A stretch of 64,000 bases of DNA from Clostridiales bacterium. Its GTDB lineage: Bacteria; Bacillota; Clostridia; Saccharofermentanales; Saccharofermentanaceae. The stretch spans positions 1-64,000 of the forward strand of contig JAFZQI010000028.1 of NCBI GenBank assembly GCA_017620475.1, given 5' to 3'. Below the pieces are notes generated by a model. That model had not been told where the DNA came from. It did not search any database and saw nothing but the letters and a program-made list of their open reading frames with translations. Of the stretch, positions 8,656 to 25,809 are shown in pieces (the stretch's first letter is position 1; each line of letters opens with the position of its first letter). The translations under genes were made by a program, and so were the position numbers.

Positions 8656-9483
8656 TCAGACTAGAACCGTATACGCCGCATATCCGAAATATCCTGCCGC
8701 CGCTCCCGCTGCAAGCGCGATCCCGAGATACTTTGTTTTCTTTCCGTTCCCAATAGCGATCCTGGCTATAAGATAAACAAGAGCCGCTACAATAGAGGGA
8801 ATGATGCCGATTGCCGCGCAAAGGACAACCGCAAAAAGATCCGATGTGCGATAGGTCTTTTGCTTATCGTCTTTGAAATAGCGGCTCATATCTTTCGGGC
8901 TGTTGGTAATGATGACCGCCAGAAGAACCGCTACGATTCCGATTGCTAAAGAAGCCGGTACACTGATAAGCCAGTCTTTGATTTTTCCCTGGGGAATACC
9001 TGCTGCGATCTGTACCAGAATGTCGATCCCCAGCGCCAAAGAAAGCACATACATGGAAGAACCGGTATCTTTCATGATCATCATCTCGACAATGACGATG
9101 TTGATCATGATAAACATGGCACACAATTCGATAAACGGAAAAATGGTTTTTGCCGGATCCGACGGATCCAGGAACATAGACAAATGAGTAGCCGCCATCA
9201 CCATATATGCTAAAGCTGTAAGACTCTCGATCTTGATGTATCTCGATGATATCGGCGTTTTGCAGTAGCGGCATTTCCCGCCGAGGAAGAGCCAGCTGAA
9301 GATCGGAACCAGATCCAGAGCACCCAGTTCATGAGAACATGTCATGCACATAGAATGTCCTTTGACGATCGTCCGATGCTCCGGAATACGGTAGATACAA
9401 ACGTTTGTAAAACTGCCGATGACCGCTCCGAACATACCGGCAAACACGATATAGAGTATTGCTAAAACAACATTGGGATCCAT
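8656..9483 (-). CDS. pilD: Type IV prepilin peptidase (A24 family)
   Basis: A 275-residue polytopic membrane protein. The N-terminus has GSFTNVCIYRIP and two CxxC pairs (CMTC, CRYC), the zinc-binding cytoplasmic loop of N-methylating prepilin peptidases. Six to eight membrane spans follow. The enzyme would cut and methylate the pilins encoded across the divergent gap. The aspartates of the A24 site are not canonical: the usual GxGD is replaced by RTSD (before LFAVVLCAAIG), and the first site reads VEMMIMKDTGS, so assignment of the first Asp is unclear. ATG at 9483 has GGAGG about 10 bases upstream; a TTG at 9501 overlaps that ribosome site and is rejected. Divergent from pilB. Confidence 0.88.
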   Translation of the reverse strand: MDPNVVLAILYIVFAGMFGAVIGSFTNVCIYRIPEHRTIVKGHSMCMTCSHELGALDLVPIFSWLFLGGKCRYCKTPISSRYIKIESLTALAYMVMAATHLSMFLDPSDPAKTIFPFIELCAMFIMINIVIVEMMIMKDTGSSMYVLSLALGIDILVQIAAGIPQGKIKDWLISVPASLAIGIVAVLLAVIITNSPKDMSRYFKDDKQKTYRTSDLFAVVLCAAIGIIPSIVAALVYLIARIAIGNGKKTKYLGIALAAGAAAGYFGYAAYTVLV

Positions 9484-9729
9484 ACTTTCACTTTCCTCCA
9501 ATCCACCTCATAACAATATTATAAACACACGTGAAATGCAAATCACCTCTTCTTTTTTATTGTTTTTCTATCAAACTTTTTTGTACATTTTTTACAAAAT
9601 GTTCAGATTTAGTTGCAAAATGGCAGTTTTCCATGTATATTTATTGAGAAAAAGACGATAGTTTTGTATCGTGTTTGTAAGGGAAAGGGTTACAGGATAA
9701 TAACAGTTTCGCTCGAAAAATGAGCGAAA

Positions 9730-9838: not shown

Positions 9839-9869
9839 ACTAAAACGTGCATCAATTTGGGAGGGTATG

Positions 9870-11546
9870 ATGAAACGATTAGGAGATATTCTTATCGACA
9901 GCGGCTTCCTGTCACAGGCAGAACTACAGGAGGCTCTGGAGGCTCAGCGTGCTTCAACAACCAAGAAGCGTCTCGGCGAAATCATCGTAGAAAAAGGTCT
10001 GCTTACCGAACTCGATATTCTTCGGGCGATTTCCAGTCAGTACGAACTCCCTATTATTGATCTTCAGCAGGTTGATATCGATCAGGAGGCCACCAAGGTC
10101 GTAACCGAGCAGTATTGCGAAGAGAACCTGATCATCCCGGTAGCTTTCGATGAAGGAAAGCTGGTTGTGGCGATTTATGACCCGCTGAATATTCTTGTTA
10201 CAGATGACCTCCGTTTCCGTACGGGAAACGATATCGTTACCCTTCTTGCTCCTAAGCAGCAGATCCTCGCTGCCATTAAGATGAACTATGGTAGAGAGGT
10301 AGCTAAGAAGGCTGCTGACGATCTCGCTGCTGACCTCGATATCGAGGATATGAAGAAACTCGGCGACGAGATCACCGATGAAGTCAACAACGCACCTGTA
10401 GTTAAACTCGTTAACTCTATGATCGAGTTTGCTATCCGTGCAAATTCTTCAGATATTCACATCGAGCCGATGGAAGATCGTGTTCGAGTCCGTATCCGTA
10501 TCGATGGTGTTCTCCAGGAAATCATGAGCAACCCGGTTGCTGCGAAAGACGCCATCATCACCCGTATTAAGATCCTTTCCGGTATGAACATTGCTGAGAA
10601 ACGTATTCCTCAGGACGGTCGTGTTCAGACATTGATCAACGGAAAACCGGTTGACATGCGTGTATCTATTCTCCCTACGGTACACGGTGAGAAGACCGTT
10701 ATCCGTATCCTTGCTAAGAACGATGCCAACCTGAACCGTAAATACCTCGGTATCAGCGAACACAATAATGAGATGATCGACAGGATCGTCAAAGTACCTC
10801 AGGGCGTGTGCTTGATCTCCGGACCTACCGGTTCCGGTAAAACCACAACGCTCTATACTCTTCTTTCCGAAAAGAACAGTCCCGAAACCAACATCGTAAC
10901 CGTTGAGGACCCGGTAGAAATTCAGATTCCCGGACTTAACCAGGTACAGGTAAATGTTAAAGCCGGTATGACATTCGCAAGCGGCCTCCGTTCTATCCTC
11001 CGTCAGGACCCGGATATCATCCTCGTCGGTGAGATCCGTGACGGTGAGACGGCTGAGATCGCAATGCGTGCTGCTATTACCGGTCACTTGGTATTCAGTA
11101 CCATCCACACCAACGATGCTGTTTCTTCCATCAACCGTTTGATCGATATGGGTATCGAGCCCTTCATGGTTTCCACCGCGTTGATCGGTGTTGTTGCACA
11201 GCGTCTCGTTCGCCGTATCTGCACCAACTGCCGTGAGGAATATACACCGGGACCGGATGAGGTTGAACTTCTGCATCTTAAGCCGGGACAGAAACTGTAC
11301 CGTGGTGCCGGTTGTTCCGAGTGTAACGAGAAGGGTTATAAGGGTCGTATCGCGATCCACGAAGTCGTCATCATGACAAAGAAGATGAGAGCATTGCTCG
11401 AGCGTCGTGCCGGTGAAGACGAGATGCGCGCTCTGGCCGTCTCCGAAGGCACACTTATGCTAGCCGATTCTGCTGCGCAGTTAGTATTGGAGGGTATTAC
11501 TACTGTGGCAGAGATGAGTAAAGTAACATATTCCATTGACGGTTAA
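9870..11546 (+). CDS. pilB: Type IV pilus assembly ATPase PilB
   Basis: A 558-residue hexameric extension ATPase that powers pilin polymerisation at the inner face of the membrane. Residues about 1-150 form the MshEN-type N-domain (LGDILIDSGFLSQAELQEAL, then a second copy-like helix set). The core has Walker A GPTGSGKTT near residue 318, the Asp box (VEDPVEIQIPGLNQVQVN), Walker B region (LRQDPDIILVGEIRDGETAEIA), His box (TGHLVFSTIHTNDA) and a tetracysteine zinc site (CTNC... CSEC). Two ATGs are adjacent (9867 and 9870); GGGAGG ends at 9864, so the second gives the more usual spacing of 5. First gene of the operon; pilT follows after 12 bases. Confidence 0.97.
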   Translation: MKRLGDILIDSGFLSQAELQEALEAQRASTTKKRLGEIIVEKGLLTELDILRAISSQYELPIIDLQQVDIDQEATKVVTEQYCEENLIIPVAFDEGKLVVAIYDPLNILVTDDLRFRTGNDIVTLLAPKQQILAAIKMNYGREVAKKAADDLAADLDIEDMKKLGDEITDEVNNAPVVKLVNSMIEFAIRANSSDIHIEPMEDRVRVRIRIDGVLQEIMSNPVAAKDAIITRIKILSGMNIAEKRIPQDGRVQTLINGKPVDMRVSILPTVHGEKTVIRILAKNDANLNRKYLGISEHNNEMIDRIVKVPQGVCLISGPTGSGKTTTLYTLLSEKNSPETNIVTVEDPVEIQIPGLNQVQVNVKAGMTFASGLRSILRQDPDIILVGEIRDGETAEIAMRAAITGHLVFSTIHTNDAVSSINRLIDMGIEPFMVSTALIGVVAQRLVRRICTNCREEYTPGPDEVELLHLKPGQKLYRGAGCSECNEKGYKGRIAIHEVVIMTKKMRALLERRAGEDEMRALAVSEGTLMLADSAAQLVLEGITTVAEMSKVTYSIDG

Positions 11547-11558
11547 GGAGGAAAGAAA

Positions 11559-12680
11559 GTGGAAGAATTTACATTAAGTATGGATGCCATTCTCACAGAG
11601 GCTGTTCGCCGCCAGGCGTCCGATACGCACATCACGGTTGGTCTCCCGCCGATGATCCGCGTACACGGTGAACTCATGCCCTTGAATTCCAACATCTTGA
11701 CACAGAGCGATACCGAGTATCTGTGCAAATCCATGTTGGACAAGTCCAGACAGCAGTACCTCAACGAACGTGGTGAGATCGACTTCTCATACGTAGTTAA
11801 GGATTACAGCCGTTTCCGCTGCAACGTATTTAAGCAGCGCGGAAGCTATACGCTGGCTGCCCGTACTATCACCACGGAGATTCCGACTTGTGAGCGTCTT
11901 GGTCTTCCTGAACTGTTTAAAGATCTTGCACTCAAGCCGCGTGGATTGATCCTTGTTACCGGTCCTACGGGTTCCGGTAAGTCCACAACACTGGCCGCCA
12001 TGGTCGGTCACATCAACCAGAACCGCCGTTGCCATGTTCTCACACTGGAAGAGCCGATCGAGTATCTGCATCGCCATGGTGAGTCCATGATCAACCAGCG
12101 CGAAGTTCATGAGGATACCCTTTCCTTCGCCAATGCTCTCCGTGCTGCCCTCCGTGAAGATCCGGATGTTATCATGGTTGGTGAGATGCGTGACCTGGAT
12201 ACGATCAGTACCGCGATCACCGCATCAGAAACAGGTCACTTGGTTATGTCTACCCTTCACACCAGTGGCGCAGCTGACACCATCAACCGTGTAATCGACG
12301 TATTCCCTCCGCATCAGCAGGATCAGATCCGTGTTCAGCTTGGTACCGTTCTGGTAGCCGTTATTTCTCAGACACTTCTTCCTCGTGCAGATGGTTCCGG
12401 ACGTATTGCGGCATTCGAGATCCTCATCGCCAACGATGCTGTCCGTAACCTGATCCGTGAAGGAAAAACATATCAGATTGATAACACCATCGCGACGAAC
12501 CTGAAGATGGGAATGTGTTCTTTGGATTACTACCTCGCCGAGCTCACCAAGAAAGGGCTCATCACCCGTGAGACAGCAATCTCCAGATGCAAGGACCCGG
12601 ACGAGTATCGTCGTTACCTGGCAGCAGCCGGTACTGCAAACTCTGTTTCAAGCGGGCTGTTTAGTTCACTTGAATACTAA
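11559..12680 (+). CDS. pilT: Type IV pilus retraction ATPase PilT
   Basis: A 373-residue retraction motor. Visible motifs: ASDTHITVGLPPMIRVHG near the N-terminus, Walker A GPTGSGKST near residue 134, Asp box (LEEPIEYLH), Walker B (LREDPDVIMVGEMRDLDT), His box (GHLVMSTLHTSGA) and the C-terminal helix region with LITRETAISRCKDP. The normal PilT AIRNLIREGK segment appears as AVRNLIREGK. GTG start at 11559 with AGGAGG seven bases upstream. Presence of PilT means the pili can retract, as needed for twitching, DNA uptake or surface sensing. Confidence 0.96.
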   Translation: MEEFTLSMDAILTEAVRRQASDTHITVGLPPMIRVHGELMPLNSNILTQSDTEYLCKSMLDKSRQQYLNERGEIDFSYVVKDYSRFRCNVFKQRGSYTLAARTITTEIPTCERLGLPELFKDLALKPRGLILVTGPTGSGKSTTLAAMVGHINQNRRCHVLTLEEPIEYLHRHGESMINQREVHEDTLSFANALRAALREDPDVIMVGEMRDLDTISTAITASETGHLVMSTLHTSGAADTINRVIDVFPPHQQDQIRVQLGTVLVAVISQTLLPRADGSGRIAAFEILIANDAVRNLIREGKTYQIDNTIATNLKMGMCSLDYYLAELTKKGLITRETAISRCKDPDEYRRYLAAAGTANSVSSGLFSSLEY

Positions 12681-12711: not shown

Positions 12712-13920
12712 ATGCCAAATTTCAAATATGAAGTAGTCGATGCAGCTGGTCGTTCGAGCAAAGGCATTATTGAAGCGGCAACAATCGGTGACGCTTCAAA
12801 GATGTTGCGTGCGGATGGTCGTTACATCGCTTCACTCGAGCAGGATTCTGGTTCCAGTATTCTCTCGATGAACATTGGAAGCCCGAAGCTTAAGACGAAG
12901 GATCTGATGATCATCACCAGACAGCTCTCTTCCCTTCTGAGTGCCGGTATTACCGTTATCCGTTCTTTGGATATGTTGTATCAGCAGTTGGAAAGTAAGA
13001 AGGCTAAGGCGTGCATCGGCTCGGTTTACGAGTCCATCCAGGCAGGTAAAACTTTGTCCGAAGCGTTCCGCGATCAGGCCAAGGCTCTCCCGCCTATCAT
13101 GGTTTCCATGATCTCCGCCGGTGAAGAATCCGGACGTCTGGACGAGGTTATGAACCGTCTCGCGATGCACTTCGAAAAAGAGCAGAAAATGAAGAACAAA
13201 GTTGCAGCCGCCATGGTTTACCCGATCATCCTCGCAGTAGTTACCTTGGGTATTACGGTCGGACTTATGACATTGATCGTTCCTCGTTTTGCTCAGACCC
13301 TGAATGACCTCGGTGGTGAGCTCCCGGGTCTGACCAAAGCCGTTATGAGTTTCAGTAATAGCCTCGTAAATTACTGGTATGTGTACATCGCCGTTATTCT
13401 GGGTGTTGTAGTCGGCTTCCGACTCTTCGTTCATTCAGAGAAAGGATCAATGGCCTGGGCGAAGTTCACACTCAAAGTGCCTGTAGTTGGTAAAGCGAAC
13501 AAGGCAACCGCTGCCGCCCGCTTTACAAGAACGATGGCAACATTGCTCCGAAGCGGTATCAGCGTATTGGATTCCATGGAGATCACAAGTCATACACTTG
13601 GTAACAAGTGGCTTGAGTCCCAGCTTTTCGAATCAAGAAATGAGATCCGTAAGGGTTCTTCCGTTTCCCGTTCTATCCGCGGAATCAAAGAGTTCCCTCC
13701 TATGATCTACGCAATGACCGCCATTGGTGAAGAGTCCGGTTCTCTGGATAGTATCCTTGATAAGGCCGCTGACTTCTTCGAAGATGAGGCCGATGCTGCA
13801 ACCGCCAAGATGACAGCAGCTATGGAACCTCTCATGATCGTTGTCATGGCAGGTGTCGTACTTCTCATCGTTGGTGCATGCGGCTTGCCGATCCTGACAA
13901 TGACCAAGAGCATTATGTGA
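12712..13920 (+). CDS. pilC: Type IV pilus inner-membrane platform protein PilC
   Basis: A 402-residue T2SF/PilC protein: an N-terminal FKYEVVDAAGRSSKGIIEA segment, then two repeated cytoplasmic helical domains, each with the family signature (LLSAGITVIRSLDML...; LLRSGISVLDSMEIT...) and an (I)SAGEESGRLDEV / IGEESGSLDSIL motif, with membrane spans near residues 165-190, 215-240 and 375-398. It couples the PilB and PilT motors to pilin in the membrane. AAGGAGG lies eight bases before the ATG. Confidence 0.96.
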   Translation: MPNFKYEVVDAAGRSSKGIIEAATIGDASKMLRADGRYIASLEQDSGSSILSMNIGSPKLKTKDLMIITRQLSSLLSAGITVIRSLDMLYQQLESKKAKACIGSVYESIQAGKTLSEAFRDQAKALPPIMVSMISAGEESGRLDEVMNRLAMHFEKEQKMKNKVAAAMVYPIILAVVTLGITVGLMTLIVPRFAQTLNDLGGELPGLTKAVMSFSNSLVNYWYVYIAVILGVVVGFRLFVHSEKGSMAWAKFTLKVPVVGKANKATAAARFTRTMATLLRSGISVLDSMEITSHTLGNKWLESQLFESRNEIRKGSSVSRSIRGIKEFPPMIYAMTAIGEESGSLDSILDKAADFFEDEADAATAKMTAAMEPLMIVVMAGVVLLIVGACGLPILTMTKSIM

Positions 13921-13944: not shown

Positions 13945-15063
13945 ATGGCTTTTGTAACTGGAAGCAGCAGAGAGATATCGATTGACGTCTCCAGCTCAAA
14001 CATGAAAATGGTACTCGGCGGCTACAACCGCAAGACGGGGGTAGTTTCGATCGAGAAATTCGGTCTGATCCCTCTCGAGTCCGACACGATCTCTGACGGC
14101 GTAGTTGCCGATCAGTTCGGCGTAGTAATGGCGCTGAAGAATGCTCTTGCTAAGAGTAACATTCAGGACAAGCGTGCAGTACTCACCGTTGAAGGAAGCT
14201 ACCTTCATACGAGAGACCTTGAACTCCCGGCAGTAAAGGGTGATCAGCTCCGTGATATGGTTCGCTATGAGATCCTCGGTCAGGGCACGAACAACCGTGA
14301 CATGATCGTAGAATACATTATTTATGATAAGGTTCTTGATGAAGAGACCAAGCAGCAGAAGTACAAAGTTCGTGCAACCGCTATTCCGAAGGATGTTGCG
14401 AATGACTTCCGTGAACTGATGAAGACAAGTTCCCTCGTTCCGGTAGCACTGGATGTTAACCCGAACGCGATCCGTAAGCTCTTTAAGGGTGGTACGATCA
14501 ACGGAACAACAAACATCAATTCCAATACCCTGCTTCTCATCGAACTGTCCTCGAAGACAACGAACATCACCGTTCTTGACAAGGGATTCCCGGTACTGAC
14601 CAGAAGACTTCAGTTCGGTCACTCTAACATCCGTCAGGTTGCCGAGACAGTTAAGAAAGTTCAGGGCAACTCCGCGAATAAGTCTTCCATCCTCACCCGC
14701 CGTCTTCAGGTGGTTAAGGGCGAAGGCATCTCCTCTGTGGATGTTGCTGATATCGATGTATGGCACGAGACAGTTAAGGATGAGCCTTCTCTGAACGGTG
14801 CAGTTTCTGCTTACTTCAAGAGCTTGACTGATGCCATCTCAAGAACAGCTCAGTTCTCGATTTCCAAGTATCATCTGGACGCCATCAGCACATGCTTCCT
14901 CTATGGATCCGGTGCAAGATACAGAAAGATGGACAAAGAGCTTGCCCGTCAGCTGGGTACACAGGTTGAGGTTCTGGGTTCTCTGAATACGGTTCAGGGT
15001 CCGAAGGACTTCATTCTTAGCGACTATGTGAATGCGTGCGGCGCACTCATTCGTGAAAACTGA
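13945..15063 (+). CDS. pilM: Type IV pilus assembly protein PilM (actin-like)
   Basis: A 372-residue actin-fold protein (PilM/FtsA-like) of the cytoplasmic pilus ring. It starts with SSREISIDVSSSNMKMVLGGY (phosphate-1 loop), has LLLIELSSKTTNITVLDKG (phosphate-2) and ends with an adenosine-type GSGARYRKMDKELARQLG segment followed by VNACGALIREN. In model systems PilM binds the N-terminus of PilN; here the next gene encodes the PilN-like protein. AAAGGAG precedes the ATG; 24 bases after pilC. Confidence 0.9.
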   Translation: MAFVTGSSREISIDVSSSNMKMVLGGYNRKTGVVSIEKFGLIPLESDTISDGVVADQFGVVMALKNALAKSNIQDKRAVLTVEGSYLHTRDLELPAVKGDQLRDMVRYEILGQGTNNRDMIVEYIIYDKVLDEETKQQKYKVRATAIPKDVANDFRELMKTSSLVPVALDVNPNAIRKLFKGGTINGTTNINSNTLLLIELSSKTTNITVLDKGFPVLTRRLQFGHSNIRQVAETVKKVQGNSANKSSILTRRLQVVKGEGISSVDVADIDVWHETVKDEPSLNGAVSAYFKSLTDAISRTAQFSISKYHLDAISTCFLYGSGARYRKMDKELARQLGTQVEVLGSLNTVQGPKDFILSDYVNACGALIREN

Positions 15064-15077
15064 AAGGAGGCGAGATT

Positions 15078-15989
15078 ATGAGTTTTGCAAAATCAAAAAA
15101 TGACTTTTCAAAAAAAGACATGAACTTCTTTTCAGAGTTCAGTTCTGCTGCATCTCAACAGATTTCGTCAGCATTCCCTATTTTCCTGATTGCGACAGTA
15201 GCGATCCTTGTGATTACACTCCTTGTTTGGATCATCTGCGGTATTCAGGTAATGAAGACACAGGACAAGATCAACGACCTGAAAGCTACCATGGCTTCTG
15301 CAGACTATCAGGCACGTCTTGCTGCTAAAGATCAGTCCCAGGCAGAGGTTGAAGAACTGAAGTCTTACTTCTACGTTCTTTCTTCCCTGGATGCTAAGGT
15401 TTCCGGAAAGAATACTTCCGCTGTTGAAACACTCACAACAGTCGTAAGCGTTCTTCCTGACGATACGATTTTGACATTCTACCAGGATACAGACGGAACA
15501 GTTGATATCCAGGGCCAGTGCCTCAATCGTGAATCCGCCTACAATTATCTCAACCTTCTGAAGGAGAAGGACATCTTCAGTTTCATCGAAGAAGAGATCA
15601 AGGCGATCGATCCTGTTGCGGATCTTCAGTACAAGAAAGAAACCCTTATGTTTGGTACGATGCAGTATAATTTCGCATTCACCTGCACCTTGAAGGGACA
15701 CTACACCTTATCCTGGGCTTCGTTCATTGACGGTACGGTTCCTACACCGCTTACCAACCTCCGCACTCAGACTTTCAGCGCCGGTTCTGATTTCAAACTT
15801 CCGGATATTGCCACATATTCTGAGAATGGCGTGAACTACACCCTGACTAACATTAAGGTTAACGGAACAGCCGTTTCACCGGAACAGCTGCAGGAAGCAA
15901 TTAACAATAATGCTTATGCCGGTAAGGTTTCTTCCACAATGAATATTGAATTTATGTACAAGGTTGCTGAAGAAGGAGGTGAGTCCTGA
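15078..15989 (+). CDS. pilN: PilN-like pilus alignment protein
   Basis: A 303-residue bitopic protein: about 32 cytoplasmic residues, one membrane span at about 33-57, a coiled-coil segment (IQVMKTQDKINDLKATMA...) and an extracytoplasmic fold with SVLPDDTILTFYQDTDGTVDIQGQCLNRESAYNYLNLL, the PilN-type ferredoxin-like core. It is about 100 residues longer than usual PilN, with an extra C-terminal beta-rich domain. Function by position between pilM and pilO. The stop overlaps the next start (TGATG). Confidence 0.78.
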   Translation: MSFAKSKNDFSKKDMNFFSEFSSAASQQISSAFPIFLIATVAILVITLLVWIICGIQVMKTQDKINDLKATMASADYQARLAAKDQSQAEVEELKSYFYVLSSLDAKVSGKNTSAVETLTTVVSVLPDDTILTFYQDTDGTVDIQGQCLNRESAYNYLNLLKEKDIFSFIEEEIKAIDPVADLQYKKETLMFGTMQYNFAFTCTLKGHYTLSWASFIDGTVPTPLTNLRTQTFSAGSDFKLPDIATYSENGVNYTLTNIKVNGTAVSPEQLQEAINNNAYAGKVSSTMNIEFMYKVAEEGGES

Positions 15990-17155
15990 TGAAAAACTCT
16001 GGCGGTAAAGATACACTGTTACTGTTTGTCGTTCTTCTTCTGGCTCTCGGTGCCGTATGCTACATCTTCATTATTAAGAAGAATGTAGACAAGCTGCACG
16101 AAGTAAAAAATGAACTTGCTGTTGTTGAACAGGAGAAGGCTAAGAATGATGCCATCATCCAACAAGCTCAGGAACTCGATGCTCAGCGTGAGAATCTGAA
16201 GAACCAGATTCAGACACTCGAGACGAAGCTTCCCCCGGAACTCTACACAAGTGCTATTCAGAGAAAACTCTATAAGCATTTCGAGGATGCCGGTATTCCC
16301 TTCATCGTTGAAGTTTCGAATACTGCCCTTTCCTACGACACCGTTACACTTCCGGGAGGTTCACCTAGCCCGAACCGTGTTAAGACATCCAGATATATCG
16401 TACAGGTTTCCGGTACTGATGGATGGCTTCTGACACATGACGAAGGAGACGATATTCCGTATACCGTATTCTATACACAGCTTAAGATTCCTTCCAGCCA
16501 GGCTAATGTCCCTGTAAATAAGGAAGCTCAGGAATATGGTCATGATAGTGCAAACGAATTCAGAAGTGAAACGTATGTTGGTTATGAGCAGTTTGTAACC
16601 GCTCTGAAGAAGATCCAGTCTGATGCTCCGGACTACGTTAAGATCGCTGACATTCAGATCGAAGATACGAAGCAGGGTTTCTGCTACTATACAGTTGGTG
16701 TAGATGTATATGCTTATGAATTGATCGATCGTATTTCCGCAGCACCTACAGATATGAACTACATGACATGGGTTGGCGCTCAGAACATTGCAACCGGCGG
16801 TCTGGTAGGTCTTCCGAACTACTTCGTGATCGATACACCGAACTACAAAGTTCCTACGTCTTCTCCTCTGTATGGACACTACATTTCCTTCACACAGTTT
16901 GACTTTGCTGTAACACGTCCGTTCGCAGCTTGGAATCACTGGGGTTATGAGTGGATCAATCTTGATGTTACTTTGTCTGAGATCGCTGATCTTGATCCTG
17001 AGCTCGCATCGCTCAAGTTTAAGTATTCGCTCGGTATGATGTCTTATGAAGATTACAACAAGGCTGTAGCGGATTATAACAAGACGATCCAGGACAATGG
17101 TGGTGTGGTTGATGCAAGTCTCCTTGAGCAGCCTCAGCAGACACCGGCTTCGTAA
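15989..17155 (+). CDS. pilO: PilO-like pilus alignment protein
   Basis: A 388-residue bitopic protein: a membrane span at about residues 8-27, a long coiled coil at about 30-80 (KNVDKLHEVKNELAVVEQEKAKN...), then an extracytoplasmic domain, with a proline-rich, flexible C-terminus. The layout is that of PilO, which pairs with PilN. It is nearly twice the usual PilO length, with an additional C-terminal half of unknown fold. Coupled to the PilN-like gene by a 1-base overlap and closed by a hairpin 34 bases downstream. Confidence 0.75.
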   Translation: MKNSGGKDTLLLFVVLLLALGAVCYIFIIKKNVDKLHEVKNELAVVEQEKAKNDAIIQQAQELDAQRENLKNQIQTLETKLPPELYTSAIQRKLYKHFEDAGIPFIVEVSNTALSYDTVTLPGGSPSPNRVKTSRYIVQVSGTDGWLLTHDEGDDIPYTVFYTQLKIPSSQANVPVNKEAQEYGHDSANEFRSETYVGYEQFVTALKKIQSDAPDYVKIADIQIEDTKQGFCYYTVGVDVYAYELIDRISAAPTDMNYMTWVGAQNIATGGLVGLPNYFVIDTPNYKVPTSSPLYGHYISFTQFDFAVTRPFAAWNHWGYEWINLDVTLSEIADLDPELASLKFKYSLGMMSYEDYNKAVADYNKTIQDNGGVVDASLLEQPQQTPAS

Positions 17156-17370: not shown

Positions 17371-17484
17371 ATGACCGGATTCTCCCCCAAAAAAGATACG
17401 GATTCATGGTCTAAACAAATTTTTTCACAAAATTGTGAAGAAATTTCAAAATTGCTATTGCATTTTCAAAATCACCTGTTATAA
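17371..17484 (+). CDS. Possible 37-residue small protein or leader peptide
   Basis: ATG at 17371 has AAGGAG with a 7-base spacing and lies about 85 bases after a good promoter. The product begins MTGFSPKKDTDSWSKQ and ends in an amphipathic segment (EEISKLLLHFQNHLL). Its 3' end overlaps the pilin promoter at 17458-17485, so its translation or transcription could affect pilin expression. No similarity is recognised; it may be a chance ORF with a chance ribosome site. Confidence 0.35.
   Translation: MTGFSPKKDTDSWSKQIFSQNCEEISKLLLHFQNHLL
17424..17449. promoter_or_regulatory. Palindrome and TGTGAA box before the pilin promoter
   Basis: TTCACAA / TTGTGAA arms around AA (17424-17439). From 17434 the sequence TGTGAAGAAATTTCAA matches 14 of 16 bases of the reverse complement of the box at 17215 and 22054. 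It lies 18 bases (from the palindrome) before the -35. Confidence 0.4.
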
Positions 17485-17485
17485 T
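17458..17485 (+). promoter_or_regulatory. Promoter of the first pilin gene
   Basis: TTGCAT (17458-17463), a 16-base spacer and a perfect TATAAT (17480-17485), 40 bases before the ATG. Confidence 0.7.
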
Positions 17486-17525
17486 GTAATTACAAACTCA
17501 ATAAAACATTTAGGAGGAACTTATT

Positions 17526-17726
17526 ATGAAGAAGATTCAGAAGAACAGAAAAGGTTTCACACTCATCGAGATGGTACTCGTTATCGCTATCATCGTTATC
17601 CTGGCTGCAGTAGTAGTATTCTCTGTTAAGGATTATCTTGACAAGGCAAGAAGTGCTACATCTAAGCTGAACGAAGACAAGTCCATCGTTGAGTCCGTAA
17701 CAGCTGACATCGACGCTGCTCTGTAA
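17526..17726 (+). CDS. Short type IV pilin (66 residues), probable major subunit
   Basis: A class III leader NRKG then FTLIEMVLVIAIIVILAAVVVF, with Glu at mature position 5. Cleavage after Gly10 leaves only 56 residues: the hydrophobic N-terminal helix, a short amphipathic extension and no globular head or disulfide loop. This is unlike usual pilins of 120-180 residues but similar in size to the short PilA of Geobacter; Phe1, Phe22 and Tyr27 are the only aromatics. Own promoter and own strong terminator suggest high, separate expression, as for a major subunit (inference). AGGAGG lies seven bases before the ATG. Confidence 0.85.
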   Translation: MKKIQKNRKGFTLIEMVLVIAIIVILAAVVVFSVKDYLDKARSATSKLNEDKSIVESVTADIDAAL

Positions 17727-17776
17727 TGTAACTGGTTAACTAGCTACTTACTTACTGTTAGTGAAAGCAAACAATT

Positions 17777-17808
17777 AAAGAGGGGGGGCTGCAAGGTCCC
17801 CCCTTTTT
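17777..17808 (+). terminator. Terminator after the first pilin
   Basis: AGAGGGGGGG ... CCCCCCTTTTT: a GC-rich stem with a short loop and a T run, 50 bases after the pilin stop. Confidence 0.9.
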
Positions 17809-17831
17809 ACTATTTGTTAACAATTTAGGCT

Positions 17832-17859
17832 TTGCACATTGGTTAAGATGTGTTATAAT
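17832..17859 (+). promoter_or_regulatory. Promoter of the minor-pilin operon
   Basis: TTGCAC (17832-17837), a 16-base spacer, TATAAT (17854-17859); 26 bases before the next ATG. Confidence 0.7.
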
Positions 17860-17885
17860 GTATTAGGTTATACTTGGAGGAAATT

Positions 17886-18101
17886 ATGAACAAGATCTAT
17901 AAGTCACGGCGTGGCTTCACACTCATGGAGATCATGATTGTCATCGCCATTATAGTATTGTTGGCTGCGGTTGTTTTCATTTCCGTGCACGAGTTTATAA
18001 CCAAGGGTGACAGTGCATCCTCAGAGCTCAGTGTTGAGAGATCTTCTTTCCGTGCTAATAATGCTGAAAAAGATGATAAATTCGTCTCAGTGGGTTATTA
18101 A
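17886..18101 (+). CDS. Second short type IV pilin (71 residues)
   Basis: SRRG followed by FTLMEIMIVIAIIVLLAAVVFISV: a normal class III prepilin N-terminus with Glu5. The mature chain is about 61 residues with a charged tail (ERSSFRANNAEKDDKF) and, like its neighbour, has no room for a globular domain. The ATG at 17886 has GGAGG six bases upstream; an in-frame codon at 17874 lies before the ribosome site and is not used. First gene of an operon with two larger minor pilins. Confidence 0.82.
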   Translation: MNKIYKSRRGFTLMEIMIVIAIIVLLAAVVFISVHEFITKGDSASSELSVERSSFRANNAEKDDKFVSVGY

Positions 18102-18113
18102 GGAGGATGTTAA

Positions 18114-18698
18114 ATGTTTCGATGCAAGAAAGCGTCTAAGCGTGGTGGTTTCACGCTGTTGGAGACGTTGTTAGCTGTTGCAATACTCTTGATTGTATCC
18201 TTGATGGCATTTGAAGGCTTTATGACTACCCTGAACTATTCAGGTGATACTGCTCTTGCAGAAAGAGTCAGCAATGAGAATACCGGAGAATGTTATAAGG
18301 TTCTCGGAGCCAGAATAAGAACTGATGATGATGGTAATTCAATCTACTATCCTGTTACTGCTGGTATTAGAGTAGCTGATGCTGGAAGTAATTATACTAA
18401 TACATTCCAAGTCTATGCTCAGGAGGCTGCTGCAGGTAATTCTGTTTTCGCGGGTTCAAGCGCTGCCTCATATGATTCTTCAAATTTTACCAGTACTGCA
18501 GACAGGCATTGTTTTGTGTATGTTCCAAGATTATGTACCGAATGTGGAACAGCACTCGGATACTTCTACAATGAAGATACTCATGTTTTGTCGTGTAAGT
18601 GTATTAACAAGGATTGCACAAATTATGGTGTAGATATTCCATATAAAACTTGTAATGTTACGGACACTGAAACGGACACTGAAGAAGAGGGGGATTGA
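18114..18698 (+). CDS. Minor pilin with C-terminal zinc-ribbon-like cysteine cluster
   Basis: A 194-residue prepilin: SKRGG then FTLLETLLAVAILLIVSLMAF (PulG/PilV-like, Glu5 present). The outer domain is Ser/Ala/Tyr rich. Near residues 143-172 there is a compact cluster CTEC ... CKC ... C that looks like a zinc ribbon, unusual in an exported protein and here on the outside of the cell. The C-terminus is acidic (TETDTEEEGD). The stop overlaps the next start (TGATG). Role as tip or minor pilin is inferred. Confidence 0.78.
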   Translation: MFRCKKASKRGGFTLLETLLAVAILLIVSLMAFEGFMTTLNYSGDTALAERVSNENTGECYKVLGARIRTDDDGNSIYYPVTAGIRVADAGSNYTNTFQVYAQEAAAGNSVFAGSSAASYDSSNFTSTADRHCFVYVPRLCTECGTALGYFYNEDTHVLSCKCINKDCTNYGVDIPYKTCNVTDTETDTEEEGD

Positions 18699-19240
18699 TG
18701 TTTATGAAAGTATTAAATAAAAACAATCGTGCCCTGAAGAAAGGCTTTACCCTTATCGAGATGGTTCTTGCGCTTGCAATCATGGCAATCATGTGTACAT
18801 ATGTCGTTTCGACATTTAAAGTTGTCAATTATAGTCATCTCAAAGTAGTTACTGTAAATAATATGCATGACTATGCTTCCCTGAACCTGCAGGCAGCGCA
18901 GAATGTAATTCAGAACGCTAAGTCTATTTCAAAATCCAGTGGTAAAATCATTGGAATTGCTGGCGGAAATGATAACTATGTTTGCTATGGATCTACCTCT
19001 ACTAAGCTATTGCCTGGTTTGACTCAGTATCATACAGGATCCGGCAAAGCGAAATGGAGACTCGAGATGGAAGTAAAGACTGACAAAGCTTCAAAGACCG
19101 TTACAATTACTCTGAAGATGTATGATAACGCTATTCCAAGTTCGGATATTACTTACTCGGACGTTATGGTTGTCTACTGCCCTGGCGTTACAGATGATAA
19201 CTTTGAGGAGTTCACCAGCAACGCGATCTACGTTTCTTAA
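18698..19240 (+). CDS. Minor pilin/pseudopilin
   Basis: A 180-residue prepilin: KKG then FTLIEMVLALAIMAIMCTYVVSTF, with Glu5, followed by an extended helix and a beta-rich head (WRLEMEVKTDKASKTVTITLKMYD). The ATG at 18698 overlaps the preceding stop and has GAGGGG upstream; ATG 18704 is an alternative. It is the last gene before a strong terminator. Confidence 0.8.
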   Translation: MFMKVLNKNNRALKKGFTLIEMVLALAIMAIMCTYVVSTFKVVNYSHLKVVTVNNMHDYASLNLQAAQNVIQNAKSISKSSGKIIGIAGGNDNYVCYGSTSTKLLPGLTQYHTGSGKAKWRLEMEVKTDKASKTVTITLKMYDNAIPSSDITYSDVMVVYCPGVTDDNFEEFTSNAIYVS

Positions 19241-19970: not shown

Positions 19971-21935
19971 TTACTCGTAGTAATACTCGAAGGAACCTCT
20001 TCTATAGTTAGATGAAAGCGGTTTCAGGCTGCTTCCGCTACCCTCACCAGGTGCAGGACAAAAGTCCATCTTGATCGCGTTACCCTGTGCAGGCTGACCA
20101 GCATAGGTAGTTGCAATGTTAACAGCCTCTACTCGGCCATAGAACTTAGGAGCATCCAAGAATCGGATAGTGCTCTTTTCTGTTCCTCTACCTGCGAGGG
20201 AGATGTATGCATCAACCGTTGCTTGACCGGATGCATGGAAGTAGTTGCTTCCGAGTCCTACGATGTTGCATGCAGGCTCCTGAGAACCAGCTACAGCAGA
20301 ACCATCGGCATTACGGTCATCGCAAGAGATAATACCTGTCGTAGCTTGACCACCAACGTTCTGGCAAACATCGTAATCATCTCCAGGTCTAGCACGTACA
20401 TAGAACTGTACGCCAGGAGCCAAAACGATCGTCAGTTTGTAATCTGTAGCATTCGATACAACAATGGTATACGAAGCAAAGGTAACATCATCGGACATAT
20501 AAATGGATGCATCATCTGTAAGATTAACCTCTAGGCGTCCATTCTGATAGGTACCGTGCATCTCATATTGACCAGAGGCGTTCAGCGGCTTGATGCGACC
20601 TGTATAATCTTCCATTTTTAACGATGTATATCCGGTAGTTAAATCGGCATATGCAGCCTGATAGTCCGCAGCATCAGCTACTTGCGTTTCTGCTGCTTTT
20701 TCTAGCGCAGTTGTGTTATCATCATCTTCATCAATAAAGGCATCTGCAACAACTTTCATTCTGTTATAATCCGAACTTACAGCAGCATCTGTTGGACTCT
20801 TCGTTGTGAATGAACCACTTGCCGAACCACCATCGATAACAACATTATTACCACTACCGCTATAGGTTGCACCATCTGCAACAACGATCGTATCAACCGT
20901 CATGTTGCCGTTTGTTGCACTTCCAGAAGCTTTATACATATAAATGCCGTTAGCAGACATATTCATCCAACCGCCGGAACCGATAGAAACAACGTTTCCA
21001 CTGGTATCATAGAAGCATTTGCAATCGCCATCATTATTACCGATAAAATAGATATCACCTGTGGTCTGTAATCCATTACCCCAAGTAACGTTACCATTCC
21101 AGTCACCATAGGAATAATGAACCGAGTAATTGCCTGATACGGCCAAACCGGCATCAGGGCCATAGAAGATAACATCATTATAGTACTGTTGACCCTGACC
21201 ACCGATAAGCCGACCGGTAAAGATCGTTCTACAGTAGTAATTTGCACCACCACCGCCGGCAGCAAGATATGTTGTGCCGTGGAATACAGCGTATGCACTC
21301 GGGTCATTACATGAAAACTCAAATCTGGAGAATTCGTTCTCAGAACCATCCTGACCGCAAGTAACCATGTTGTTGCAGATCTTCGGCGGCTTTACCGGCT
21401 TCTTGTACATAAGGTGTACTCTCAAGCTTTCAGCTTTACTATCTTCACCGGTTACGTTGATAAGCGTATGGAAAGAAAGAACGATATCAGGCACATGGTC
21501 AGGATTCAACTCCTCTATCTGAGTCGTAGGAGCCGTAGTCACCGTAAAATATGTTCTACTTACAGAAGTAGAATCCTTCATCAAACCAGGCGCAATACTC
21601 AAGCCGCTATCTCCCCCTGAAAGATAGCTACCAATTCCGTAACTGCTTGCACCTGTAATCTCATACTCACCATTATCCACCATGGTCAAAAGCTCAGCGT
21701 CAGTAAGTTCCTGTGCATTGATCGCATCAAGGATCGCCTCAGCGGCACAACTCAATGTCAATCTCTCCTGGCTCTTCTCCATGTCAACATAGTAACGTGA
21801 ACGGCCGGCAAGAGTGACTGTTAAAGCAGATGAAATAAGGATAAGCGTAATAGCAAAAATCATCAGAACCATGATGAGCATACTTCCACGTCTGCTCTTG
21901 GCCTGAAGACGCTTACCTAATTGTAAGTACTTCAT
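19971..21935 (-). CDS. Large PilX-like pilus-associated protein
   Basis: A 654-residue exported protein whose N-terminus (KSRRGSMLIMVLMIFAITLILISSALTV... then SQERLTLSCAAEAILDAI) matches the PilX N-terminal segment of minor pilins, including a Gly before the hydrophobic helix. The remainder is long, rich in Gly, Ser, Asn, Tyr and Asp, with beta-strand repeats and about ten cysteines (for example TCGQDG, FSCNDP, GDCKCF, ISCDDR), suggesting a disulfide-braced beta-solenoid adhesive head. It is convergent with the pilin operon. ATG at 21935 has GGAGG eight bases upstream; a TTG 15 bases earlier overlaps the ribosome site. Tip adhesin or pilus initiation factor by inference. Confidence 0.75.
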   Translation of the reverse strand: MKYLQLGKRLQAKSRRGSMLIMVLMIFAITLILISSALTVTLAGRSRYYVDMEKSQERLTLSCAAEAILDAINAQELTDAELLTMVDNGEYEITGASSYGIGSYLSGGDSGLSIAPGLMKDSTSVSRTYFTVTTAPTTQIEELNPDHVPDIVLSFHTLINVTGEDSKAESLRVHLMYKKPVKPPKICNNMVTCGQDGSENEFSRFEFSCNDPSAYAVFHGTTYLAAGGGGANYYCRTIFTGRLIGGQGQQYYNDVIFYGPDAGLAVSGNYSVHYSYGDWNGNVTWGNGLQTTGDIYFIGNNDGDCKCFYDTSGNVVSIGSGGWMNMSANGIYMYKASGSATNGNMTVDTIVVADGATYSGSGNNVVIDGGSASGSFTTKSPTDAAVSSDYNRMKVVADAFIDEDDDNTTALEKAAETQVADAADYQAAYADLTTGYTSLKMEDYTGRIKPLNASGQYEMHGTYQNGRLEVNLTDDASIYMSDDVTFASYTIVVSNATDYKLTIVLAPGVQFYVRARPGDDYDVCQNVGGQATTGIISCDDRNADGSAVAGSQEPACNIVGLGSNYFHASGQATVDAYISLAGRGTEKSTIRFLDAPKFYGRVEAVNIATTYAGQPAQGNAIKMDFCPAPGEGSGSSLKPLSSNYRRGSFEYYYE

Positions 21936-22008
21936 CTTTTTTGCCTCCAATTTCTGTCTAATGTTTCAATTCGGTTAAGTTACATTTTTTTGGTTATACT
22001 TAATTATC

Positions 22009-22069: not shown

Positions 22070-23077
22070 TTTTTCTTCGTTTTTGTTGGCAATTTCTGTT
22101 CTTTCTTTCACTCCGTCAAGTTTTTCCTGCCACTTTTCCCTGACATAGCGTGCCGCGTTCCCATTCACGAACCGGAGCTGTCCCGCTCCATAGAATTCCT
22201 GTTTGGGAGTTTTCTTCGCTCGTATCTTACCAGAGAGAAGATTATGTTGCAAACATTTCCATAAAGATAAATGTGTGTGTCCTGAAGAAAACCATTCTAT
22301 TTCCGGCTGAAGCTCCGTTGCACAGATCGGGCAAACCAGTTTTTCGGAGATCGTTGCCTTCAATGCTTCCTTCTCTGTAGGGAACGCTGCGCTCCTCCAT
22401 CTGTACTGCGTAGTGAGATTCGGATTAGAGATGTACGTCATCAGATCCGGGAATGAAGAATCACGATCCGGAGTTTTGGCCATAATGGCAAAATAGTCGA
22501 TAAGGGTTTCCTTGAGGATCCGCGCTTCGTACCATGCGTCTTTGTCCGCACTGTGAAAATCATCCGTCTGAGGAATACGGTAGAAGTCGACCGCGTAGGC
22601 AACACTTCTCTGTTGCGCCGTATTCTCCCCTACCCGTCCAAACAAAGGCTGGATATCCAGGAAACGCTCGTTGATTTCCGAGGATTGTCCGTGGATCTTC
22701 AGGTTTGCCTTGAGAATGGATATATCGGAATCTCCCCAGGCACAGAGCACATAGTTTTCTCCGCAGAATTCCATGAACAGCTGATATGCTTCCAGGAAAG
22801 GCAGACCGCTCTTTAAATCGCTGGTGCTTTTGTTGATGACCCGAGAAACCTGTCTGTTCATGATCTTATAGTATTCCGGACGGACAGTGATCGAGAAAGG
22901 ACGGGACAACGTGTAATCGTTCTCGGATCGCATAGTGACCTTGACGGCACCAATCTCAATGATTTCTCCGGGGAGGATCTTGGGATCGATGGGTGCAGGA
23001 ATATAGGGGATCGGCTGATTCCATTCCATATCGAACACTACGAATGTCATGGGGAACAGTTCCTGATTGGGACTCAT
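22055..23077 (-). CDS. DEDDh-family 3'-5' exonuclease
   Basis: A 340-residue protein with ExoI (FDMEWNQP ... EIIEIGAVKV), ExoII (LCAWGDSDISIL) and ExoIII (FHSADKDAWYEA) motifs of DEDDh exonucleases of the KapD/ERI-1 type, which trim RNA or single-stranded ends. Metal ligands Asp, Glu, Asp, His and Asp are all present. The last 100 residues hold CPIC ... C..H, a probable zinc motif, not typical of the core family. The start overlaps the stop of the upstream YfhO gene by four bases (ATGA), so it is in the same operon; no functional link to glycosylation is obvious. Confidence 0.82.
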   Translation of the reverse strand: MSPNQELFPMTFVVFDMEWNQPIPYIPAPIDPKILPGEIIEIGAVKVTMRSENDYTLSRPFSITVRPEYYKIMNRQVSRVINKSTSDLKSGLPFLEAYQLFMEFCGENYVLCAWGDSDISILKANLKIHGQSSEINERFLDIQPLFGRVGENTAQQRSVAYAVDFYRIPQTDDFHSADKDAWYEARILKETLIDYFAIMAKTPDRDSSFPDLMTYISNPNLTTQYRWRSAAFPTEKEALKATISEKLVCPICATELQPEIEWFSSGHTHLSLWKCLQHNLLSGKIRAKKTPKQEFYGAGQLRFVNGNAARYVREKWQEKLDGVKERTEIANKNEEKCEEM

Positions 23078-25809
23078 GCGTCAACCTCCTCTTTTCTCTT
23101 TGTGCGCCGCAGGATCTCGATACCGGCCGCAACTGCAACAGTAATGGCAAGTGAACTTATGGAGATCCATTTCCCCGGATCGTATCCCTGTGGAACAAAC
23201 CGTAATGTCACATCATGTTGTCCCGAAGGAACATGGATCGCTAAGAAAGACCCGTAAGCAGAAAATGTTTCCGTTTTCTGTCCGTCGATCTGCGCCGACC
23301 ATCCCGGATCGGAAGGAATATTCCAAGCCAGGTTCCCGGGATATGAAGAATCGATGGTTCCGCTCATCTCACCGGCGCTTATCGATGTCAGATTCCACGC
23401 ACCTTCTCTGATCGTCTCTTCGAAGCGTGTCATCAGATCCGTATCAAGAGCGGCAACATAAAGCTGCAGTTTTGAATCTCGAGGTGCATACAGCGTGAGT
23501 TTCACATTCACTCTCATTCCTTCCGTATCCTTCTCATCGATCTTAATCATCGTCGAGGAAGATTCACTCCGGCGATAAGGATTCGTCTGTCCGTTATCGT
23601 CAGAGAAGGATACTTCTACCGCCGCATCCTGCTCACACGTATAGTATATATAAATAGGAGTATTATTGGAAGAAAGGATTTCCTGTGACTGAAGAAGGAC
23701 TTCCATGCGTGCATCCTGTTCCATCGCCGACATATTTCCCTCATCATCCGTCTTCATGTTCTCAAACTCAATTACATCCATGTGAAGCGTCTTGAGAGGT
23801 TCCACTCTTGCAAACCGCAGCGCAAGAGCATTCTGGTTTTCAAACGGAGAGTCGGATGTGAGGATATCGTCGTACACATCTTCAAAAGAAAAGAAGAAAC
23901 TGTTGGTCTTTGTGTTTGGAATCTCCTTGATATCCTTTTTCCCGAACTCTTCCGAAACGAGAAGATCCGAGGACAAAAGAATATCCGTGACTTCGGTTCC
24001 TGTTCCGAGACGGATCTCCGAGTCTCCTTTAGCTGTATTTACACCCAAAGCACGGAGCATTTTGGGAAGGGATTTCGGAAGCAGATAACTATCAGCGGAG
24101 AATGTCGGATATCCGAAAAGAAGACCGTAGTTACTCTTTTTTTCATTCGGTGCAAGGATGCGGCCTCCCTTGGAAATACCGGAATCTCCCGTTTTCAGGA
24201 GCGTGACCATTTCCTTATCTTCACCCTGATAGAGAACTGCTGAATCAAGTGCATAGACCTTCTTCTTTTTCTGCGTCTCCTCCGTTTCCTTCCCGACTCC
24301 ATTTGGGGAGATTCGAAGGCTTTCCAGGGTATTCTTCTCTACTACGGGAGCTTTGAGTACGGCGTGGTAATATCTCTCCTTGATCGGACGATAGAAAGAA
24401 AGACCGCTTTCAAGAAGCATCACCACGGCAAGCGCAGAAAGTATCAGGTTACGGTGCTTTTCGCGAAAAGAACTGAAGCAGAAGACCATGGCGATATAGA
24501 AGATGAAAAAGGCGATGGCAACAAAGACGGCGAAGTCGGCGTAGTCCAGTGTCTTGGAAACTGCCGAGCGGATCAGCATAAAGGTGATGATGATTCCGCA
24601 GGTCCCCCAGACATGACTTCGGTCATCGAACCAGGATGGTTTCGCAAGGATCCGGCCGGCCATATATACGATCAGGAAAGTAATCAGAATCGAATGGGGG
24701 AATTGTCCGCTGACCGGGAAATGAAAGCCCTGGGCAACGAACTGGATGATCTTACTTGACATCGTAATATAAATGCAGACGATGGCGGAGAAGTGATAGA
24801 CCTTCTCTGAGAAACGGATCCGGGGAGAAAAGCCGTAAAGGAATACAAGGATGATCGGAAAGATTCCGCAGTAGATTGCAGGACTCTGGGTCTCATCTGC
24901 CGGGAAGACCAGAAGCGGATCGAAGCAGGCTCTTTCGAGAATATCCCAGGCCTTGAGATCCATGGTCAGGTCTTCCGGAACATGGAGCATCTGTCCTCCG
25001 TAGACCGTTTTGCCAAAAGCAAATGCGGAAGGAAGCCAGACGAATGCGGACATACCGATTCCGAGGAAAAGGAATATGAAGAAATCTCGGATCACCCGCA
25101 GGAGTTTGCGGGGCTTGGGGCCTTCGTGATAGGATTCCATGATCAGAAGCGGGAACATGAGCAGAACAAACATGAGCATGTACGATCCTGCTTTGGCGCA
25201 GGTGATTCCGGTCAGCGCCACGAGGATGGCGAACATCCAGGGAGCGGTGCCGCGGATCAGATAATACATCGAGAGTACAAGAAGCGGAAGGAGGATAACG
25301 GTATCCAGTATCCACGGTTCCTGCGAGTATGTCAGGACATAGCTGCATAAGCTATACGATACGGATAGCGCCACCGAAACCGGCGACACAACGTTTTCTT
25401 TCTTCCAAAGAAGTACAAACAAGGAAAGCGAGGCAAAGCACACTTTGATGGCAAAGATAAGCTGAGTAGCCTGAGCGATCTTCTCGGCCGGAAACAGAAG
25501 ATATAGAAGGACAAACGGGCTCATGGCGTAAGACGACACCCACGCCCAGAAGTTCACGCCGCCTCCGGCATTCCAGGTATAGAACAAGGTCTCGTGATTA
25601 ACGGCCTTTCTTCTCCATTCCGAAATGACGGGAATATACGTATCACGGAGAGTATCCGTAATCAGGCAGTCCTTACTGAAGGGATAGATCTTAAACTTAT
25701 ACGCCACCAGAAGCAGAAGAATCATGGGTAGAAAGAACGAAAGGAGCAGTCCCGCCTTCGTTCTCATCTCGGAAAAAGAGATGCGGCTGTCTTTGCGAAG
25801 TTCTCTCAT
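23074..25809 (-). CDS. YfhO family membrane protein (GT-C type), copy 1
   Basis: A 911-residue polytopic protein. The first about 480 residues hold 12 or so membrane spans with the YfhO/GT-C pattern: an early loop SCFITDTLRDTYIPV-like region and WNAGGGVNFWAWVSSYAMSPF, which carries the family's conserved substrate loop. The last about 400 residues form an extracytoplasmic beta-rich domain ending in a final span (ISISSLAITVAVAAGIEIL). YfhO proteins transfer sugars to wall polymers such as lipoteichoic acid from lipid carriers. Coupled by ATGA overlaps to both neighbours. Paralogue of the next gene. Confidence 0.85.
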   Translation of the reverse strand: MRELRKDSRISFSEMRTKAGLLLSFFLPMILLLLVAYKFKIYPFSKDCLITDTLRDTYIPVISEWRRKAVNHETLFYTWNAGGGVNFWAWVSSYAMSPFVLLYLLFPAEKIAQATQLIFAIKVCFASLSLFVLLWKKENVVSPVSVALSVSYSLCSYVLTYSQEPWILDTVILLPLLVLSMYYLIRGTAPWMFAILVALTGITCAKAGSYMLMFVLLMFPLLIMESYHEGPKPRKLLRVIRDFFIFLFLGIGMSAFVWLPSAFAFGKTVYGGQMLHVPEDLTMDLKAWDILERACFDPLLVFPADETQSPAIYCGIFPIILVFLYGFSPRIRFSEKVYHFSAIVCIYITMSSKIIQFVAQGFHFPVSGQFPHSILITFLIVYMAGRILAKPSWFDDRSHVWGTCGIIITFMLIRSAVSKTLDYADFAVFVAIAFFIFYIAMVFCFSSFREKHRNLILSALAVVMLLESGLSFYRPIKERYYHAVLKAPVVEKNTLESLRISPNGVGKETEETQKKKKVYALDSAVLYQGEDKEMVTLLKTGDSGISKGGRILAPNEKKSNYGLLFGYPTFSADSYLLPKSLPKMLRALGVNTAKGDSEIRLGTGTEVTDILLSSDLLVSEEFGKKDIKEIPNTKTNSFFFSFEDVYDDILTSDSPFENQNALALRFARVEPLKTLHMDVIEFENMKTDDEGNMSAMEQDARMEVLLQSQEILSSNNTPIYIYYTCEQDAAVEVSFSDDNGQTNPYRRSESSSTMIKIDEKDTEGMRVNVKLTLYAPRDSKLQLYVAALDTDLMTRFEETIREGAWNLTSISAGEMSGTIDSSYPGNLAWNIPSDPGWSAQIDGQKTETFSAYGSFLAIHVPSGQHDVTLRFVPQGYDPGKWISISSLAITVAVAAGIEILRRTKRKEEVDA

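Follow-up and report, generated by a model that had tools for sequence, protein, structure and literature searches.

A family of rumen and gut Clostridia appears to build type IV pili from headless, single-helix pilins

Results

Gene content of the pilus locus

The window, that is the whole 64-kb stretch of DNA analysed here, belongs to a genome of 2.68 Mb in 50 contigs which is 82% complete. It carries a pilus locus with the following genes and signals (window coordinates, strand).

8656..9501, reverse strand: PilD prepilin peptidase (A24_N_bact, 5.9e-31)
9867..11546, forward strand: PilB extension ATPase (T2SSE and MshEN domains)
11559..12680, forward strand: PilT retraction ATPase (TIGR01420, 473.8 bits, above the cut-off of 319.1)
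12712..13920, forward strand: PilC platform protein (two T2SSF stretches)
13945..15063, forward strand: PilM (PilM_2, 5.2e-17)
15078..15989, forward strand: PilN (PilN, 2.2e-5)
15989..17155, forward strand: PilO-position protein of 388 aa (assigned by position and conserved synteny)
17458..17485, forward strand: putative promoter of A (TTGCAT, 16 nt, TGtTATAAT; an equivalent box in 24/24 loci)
17512..17517, forward strand: ribosome-binding site of A, AGGAGG (sequence and locus comparison)
17526..17726, forward strand: pilin A, stub prepilin of 66 aa that matures to 56 aa, proposed to be the major pilin of the shaft (N_methyl, genus and family conservation, AlphaFold helix)
17776..17809, forward strand: intrinsic terminator between A and B (15 pairs, -24.5 kcal/mol)
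17831..17859, forward strand: putative promoter of B-C-D (TTGCAC/TATAAT; scan and locus comparison)
17886..18101, forward strand: pilin B, stub prepilin of 71 aa, mature 61 aa, C-terminal Gly-Tyr, at the head of the minor-pilin unit (ATG start; N_methyl)
18114..18698, forward strand: pilin C, larger minor pilin of 194 aa with a Cys-rich cluster (N_methyl scan, synteny)
18704..19240, forward strand: pilin D, another of the larger minor pilins, 178 aa if translated from 18704 (N_methyl scan, synteny)
19971..21950, reverse strand: K, tip-type pilin of 659 aa without Glu5, predicted beta-solenoid (alignment, structure model, fold search)

The gene set is that of a type IVa (T4a) system, the genes for PilB, PilT, PilC, PilM, PilN and PilD lying alongside pilins with the class III prepilin site G/FTLxE. 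The best model for PilB was TIGR02538, whose score of 585.7 bits is below the cut-off of 675.65, and control by c-di-GMP is possible since PilB carries an MshEN domain. None of the sequence family models searched scored above its cut-off for the PilO-position protein or for K. The order PilD, PilB, PilT, PilC, PilM, PilN, PilO-like, A, B, C, D, K, with PilD and the large K in opposite orientation to pilB-T-C-M-N-O-A-B-C-D, is kept in most loci of the genus, and pilin scan and synteny showed that the A-B-C-D order is kept through the family. Across the genus loci, PilB is 95-97%, PilT 96-99% and PilM 92-98% identical, whereas PilN, PilO and the pilins diverge much more. Near-complete relatives in the genus have a pilin repertoire similar to that of the window genome.

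Two adjoining very large multi-membrane proteins of 911 and 899 aa, YfhO-like by eye, are encoded at 23074-28505 on the reverse strand, and the first of them stays beside the pilus locus in the genus loci. Besides the operon PilT, the genome encodes an orphan PilT-like ATPase of 361 aa (L129:8216-9301, reverse strand, on its contig C32).

Pilins A and B are conserved stubs

The open reading frames, coordinates and prepilin sites (MKKIQKNRKG/FTLIEM... for A, MNKIYKSRRG/FTLMEI... for B, the slash marking the site) agreed with the initial annotation, which had described both as stub pilins with mature chains of 56 and 61 residues and had placed the aromatic residues of A at mature positions 1, 22 and 27 only. 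With the Pfam N_methyl model A scored 36 bits and B 33.4 bits, for a cut-off of 21.2. A-type stubs were found in 22/22 listed genomes of the genus and in the majority of those of the family (Saccharofermentans-like Clostridia), with a mature length of 53-65 aa and a mode of 56 (19 of 37 distinct sequences). Mature B is exactly 61 aa long in 30/38 sequences and ends in Gly-Phe or Gly-Tyr in 25/38. Because stubs recur at similar lengths through the genus and the family, the frameshift or assembly error hiding a longer C-terminus that had been envisaged for A and B is excluded. The relatives in public records are mostly rumen/gut Clostridia (Saccharofermentans sp., 'Mageeibacillus' MAGs, Candidatus Scatonaster, isolates KHP2 and YRB3002), and our literature search found no paper on pili of these Saccharofermentans relatives. 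The 5' part of the A gene (17526-17640 in the window, and its orthologues) is nearly fixed between species even synonymously (pS 0.04 in the leader and 0.24 in the head), compared with pS 0.49 and pN 0.34 in the tail.

We then considered the proposal that A and B each have their own promoter and that A has a dedicated terminator. A generic scan gave 10 promoter-like sites versus 9.6 in shuffled sequences, which alone proves nothing, and related loci were therefore compared instead. Of these, 24/24 have a TATAAT/TATACT-type box and a GGAGG-type site upstream of A, a strong hairpin with a T-rich run separating A from B, and a TATAAT-type box before B, so that both parts of the proposal held although the generic scan was non-significant. 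Given this terminator and the boxes before both genes, A would be monocistronic and B-C-D a separate unit; B is thus not free-standing but the first gene of a minor-pilin unit. Codon adaptation was highest for A among the four pilins (0.71, the others 0.56-0.60), a weak indication based on three reference genes, two ribosomal protein genes that were sought as reference being absent from the 82%-complete genome.

Minor pilin C (18114-18698) has a zinc-ribbon-like cysteine cluster, CTECGTALGYFYNEDTHVLSCKCINKDC, which is odd in an extracellular pilin. In some species a further stub pilin is encoded directly after D (L041:11878-12087, L042:11864-12070, L047:9677-9877).

Pilin A is predicted to be a single helix

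AlphaFold, run on A with 47 sequences, gave one unbroken helix over residues 13-65 with a mean pLDDT of 87 and no other element; this is a monomer model and says nothing about the fibre. By its length and its single helix, A is devoid of the C-terminal globular beta-sheet domain of canonical T4a major pilins, for which a survey of 1,955 sequences gave a mean mature length of 141 +/- 25 aa and a conserved Pro22 (PMC11046646). Pro22 was found in 0/37 A sequences (F, M, I or L instead) and Gly14 likewise in 0/37 (V or L instead). According to Anger et al., every bacterial type IV filament has a melted stretch in alpha-1 (PMC10628169), a claim that A, having neither residue, challenges.

The A tail bears a conserved, heptad-like stripe formed by Tyr27, Ala31 and Ala34, then positions 38, 41, 45, 48 and 52. 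Tail conservation is periodic (3.46 residues, matched by 0/5000 shuffles), and so is tail hydrophobicity (p 0.007).

The initial annotation considered that comparable cases are few, and outside the family nearly all best pilin matches in a Clostridia-wide sample indeed have open frames of at least 104 aa. In other families of the order the pilins have about 114-186 mature residues, some with a similar leader and without Pro22 (L135, L138); since these headed pilins also miss Pro22, its loss may have preceded that of the head. One independent clostridial stub was found (L153:5601-5831, 64 aa mature) between pilT and pilD in a pilB-pilT-stub-pilD-pilC operon. Like A it is headless and belongs to a T4a operon, but it occurs in another family, has Pro22 and is single-copy at its locus. 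A short match in G304 was rejected as a stub, being cut by a contig end.

The tails of A and of a third stub, A2, match genome by genome

A third stub pilin of the window genome, A2, is encoded on C26 (from base 36271-36274; P0003), unlinked to A and between unrelated genes. A conserved upstream box and RBS of its own, together with a hairpin-like repeat downstream in most genomes, make it unlike a silent cassette. Many A2 upstream regions (L155-L175) share TATAATTGTGNCATAAATRTGAAYG...TGTGAATAACC, operator-like repeats.

Judged by their heads, the A and A2 sequences of the 22 genus genomes fall into two groups: Ala occupies position 18 in 22/22 A and in 0 A2 sequences, and the head trees split by locus, with 1-2 label changes for a shuffled mean of about 15, so the duplication is old. 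A recent duplication of A into A2 is ruled out by these trees and by the codon identities given below. Over tail positions 30-54, the identity between A and A2 in these genomes is 0.749 within a genome versus 0.501 between genomes (0/20,000 permutations); it is 0.701 versus 0.457 for 11 dissimilar representatives, and 0.642 versus 0.483 in the sister genus (p 0.001). When the tail proteins are placed in a tree, the locus labels are spread no differently from chance (15 changes, shuffled 15.0), and 12/22 A/A2 pairs lie within clades of at most 4 leaves. Shared ancestry fails to explain this matching, because an old duplication predicts equal A-to-A2 distances whatever the genome. Of the tail differences in A between close species, 250/656 (38%) are mirrored in A2 compared with 5.5% for shuffled partners (mean 36 and maximum 119 over 2000 trials), these counts coming from overlapping species pairs and hence being non-independent. 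The pair His41-Asn42, near-invariant in the aligned set, is absent from both A and A2 of the window genome.

This pattern suggests that the A and A2 tails co-evolve and is the strongest new evidence of the analysis; A and A2 probably co-assemble and, most simply, both touch in one fibre. Pilin copies in other bacteria are known to undergo gene conversion, and an explanation that we regard as rather unlikely here is that short tracts of A sometimes overwrite A2, selection keeping the result. Some mirrored changes do have identical codons in both genes (GAT CAG ATC GAT in G015), and old conversion followed by synonymous saturation could yield part of the matching, as codon identity among A2 orthologues of different species is itself near background (0.40). 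However, codon identity shows no synonymous excess at matched residues (0.450 versus a background of 0.432, p 0.17) or at mirrored ones (0.44), the heads of the two loci have not been homogenised, and the Gly33/Ser difference that both genes show between G003 and G018 involves serine codons of distinct sets (A, GGC/TCC; A2, GGT/AGT). Selection for matching tails is favoured by the missing synonymous excess and by these differing serine codons. Mirrored changes in two unlinked pilins offer a handle on subunit contacts in a fibre that requires sequences only, and could constrain filament models.

K resembles a tip pilin

In the alignment K has a pilin-like helix at its start and no Glu5. Its model (mean pLDDT 74) contains many beta-solenoid-like strands, and the best PDB match by Foldseek was Thermus ComZ (E 4e-5). 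With VIA-align, ComZ (6qvi) gave Z 13.7 over 345 residues with an rmsd of 15.0, its two-domain arrangement being loosely superposed, a tapirin domain (4wa0) gave Z 12.7 over 262 residues with an rmsd of 5.5, and ice-binding solenoids Z about 13; with this tie, the fold alone gives no function. Identification of K as a tapirin by sequence was rejected, the NCBIfam tapirin model scoring 17.7 bits for a cut-off of 600, so that the similarity is one of fold only. The absent Glu5, the pilin helix and the large inserted domain are those of a GspK/ComZ-type tip pilin, and a tip location in the pilus has been argued for ComZ (PMC6561018). The predicted beta-solenoid of K is shared with Thermus ComZ and the Caldicellulosiruptor tapirins, a fold type common to a DNA receptor and a plant-fibre adhesin. 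ComEC is also encoded by the window genome, so a pilus bearing K could serve either DNA uptake or adhesion.

Discussion

The stub pilins described here are real, conserved and structurally unusual, and their pilus would be a variant of the T4a type. In our preferred reading, to which we give a probability of roughly 0.6, A serves as major pilin in the shaft of a headless, retractile T4a pilus, with A2 co-assembled and a tip composed of B, C, D and K. PilD would cleave prepilin A after Gly10, the 56-residue helices would be polymerised by PilB and PilC, and the fibre would be retracted by PilT. The hydrophobic first half of A may pack in the fibre core, while the heptad-like face of the tail would pack helix on helix and take over the role of the heads, much as in Tad pili. 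Having neither Gly14 nor Pro22, the helix should remain unmelted in the fibre. B would act in the tip as a headless adaptor and K, a GspK/ComZ-like beta-solenoid pilin without Glu5, as receptor or adhesin. A2 would be a second shaft subunit, and its proposed co-assembly with A would account for the co-evolution of the tails. The prepilin motif, the machinery genes, the conservation, the single helix of the monomer model and A's own promoter and terminator are shown by the data; the fibre itself is deduced entirely from sequence and models. More tentatively, and with somewhat less than even confidence, we propose that the shaft consists of bare unmelted helices of A and A2, products of unlinked genes whose tails co-evolve residue by residue, has no head protein and breaks the melted-helix architecture claimed to be universal. 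Some points count against the fibre model. Geobacter PilA-N, which among headless T4a pilins of known filament structure is the nearest to A, pairs with a separate head; Anger et al. regard the melted stretch as universal; and Actinobacterial pilins of ~100 aa also have no Pro22, but have Gly14, so that stubs are not alone in having lost Pro22. These pili would be a natural test of which parts a type IV pilin requires, since head, Gly14/Pro22 melting and partner all appear dispensable while both motors are kept.

The initial annotation compared the stubs with the short PilA of Geobacter, which needs a partner. In that split T4a geopilin PilA-N goes with a separate head protein, PilA-C (PMC11046646, PMC10191384), and truncated Geobacter pilins are accompanied by the head protein GSU1497 (PMC5174107). 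Correspondingly, A could be only the stick, with an unrelated secreted protein encoded elsewhere as head. The likeness to Geobacter stood: both systems have T4a machinery and a headless pilin of ~60 aa, and the closest solved sequences to A are Geobacter PilA-N (9egp, E 1e-11; 7tgg; 2m7g). The need for a partner did not find its counterpart at the locus, where A is followed by the terminator and then by B in the 24 loci examined, with no extra gene in between by pilin scan and synteny and no globular partner gene beside A or directly downstream. Orphan A2 is flanked by unrelated genes in the window genome, and the A tail has a conserved packing stripe of its own. A also differs from PilA-N in its absent Gly14 and Pro22, its low aromatic content, its occurrence in monoderm Clostridia and its company of two further stubs. 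We therefore hold a split pilin to be unlikely.

We consider it quite improbable that another pilin makes the shaft and that the stubs have a minor or accessory role. Candidates would be C and D or an orphan pilin of some 243 aa in a 251-aa open frame (L006:1501-2232, C44:85257 in the window genome), which has a Pro/Thr linker and a C-terminal domain. The 251-aa type is kept across the genus, complete genomes of the sister genus hold 10-11 N_methyl proteins, and in genera g3 and g4 some genomes show no A match but have the 251-aa type or a different long pilin. A, however, is placed and regulated as a major pilin would be, C and D come directly after B in a minor-pilin position, and the 251-aa protein, with its low-complexity linker, is encoded apart from the machinery. 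The different major pilin elsewhere that the initial annotation allowed for was not found among the N_methyl proteins of the window genome, the others being A2, C, D and the 251-aa orphan.

Conductive e-pili (nanowires), for which the shortness of a Geobacter PilA-like pilin and any hint in the aromatic pattern might speak, can be dismissed as very improbable. The published criteria for e-pilins are at least 9.8% aromatics, no gap above 22 and aromatics at 1, 24, 27, 50/51 and 32/57 (PMC7399161), whereas A has 5.4%, none at 24, 32, 50/51 or 57 and a 29-residue aromatic-free end; 36/37 A sequences fail even a partial test that asks for the 9.8% share, the gap limit of 22 and an aromatic residue at 24, and no Cytochrome_C7 match was found in the 82%-complete genome.

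Among other known systems, Streptococcus sanguinis has a monoderm T4a pilus with the related PilE1 and PilE2 in one fibre (PMC10628169), comparable to what is proposed for A and A2; its pilins, however, have heads and PilE1 has Pro22, and the genes of A and A2 are unlinked. In Tad/Flp pili (T4c), e.g. of Caulobacter, the mature pilin is, like A, a helix without a beta-sheet head, of 45 aa and amphipathic (PMC11067988), which shows that such a fibre can exist. In contrast to these, A goes with PilB, PilT, PilC and PilM-N rather than with TadA, TadB, TadC and a Flp-type pilin, and has the N-terminus of a T4a pilin, preceded by a short leader. A Tad-like mini-cluster lies on another contig of the window genome (L130:7661-11816, about 25660-29815 on C3) and encodes a TadA-type ATPase, a 555-aa T2SSF protein, a 399-aa protein and a 60-aa Flp1-like pilin, which is a second, unrelated kind of headless pilin in this genome.
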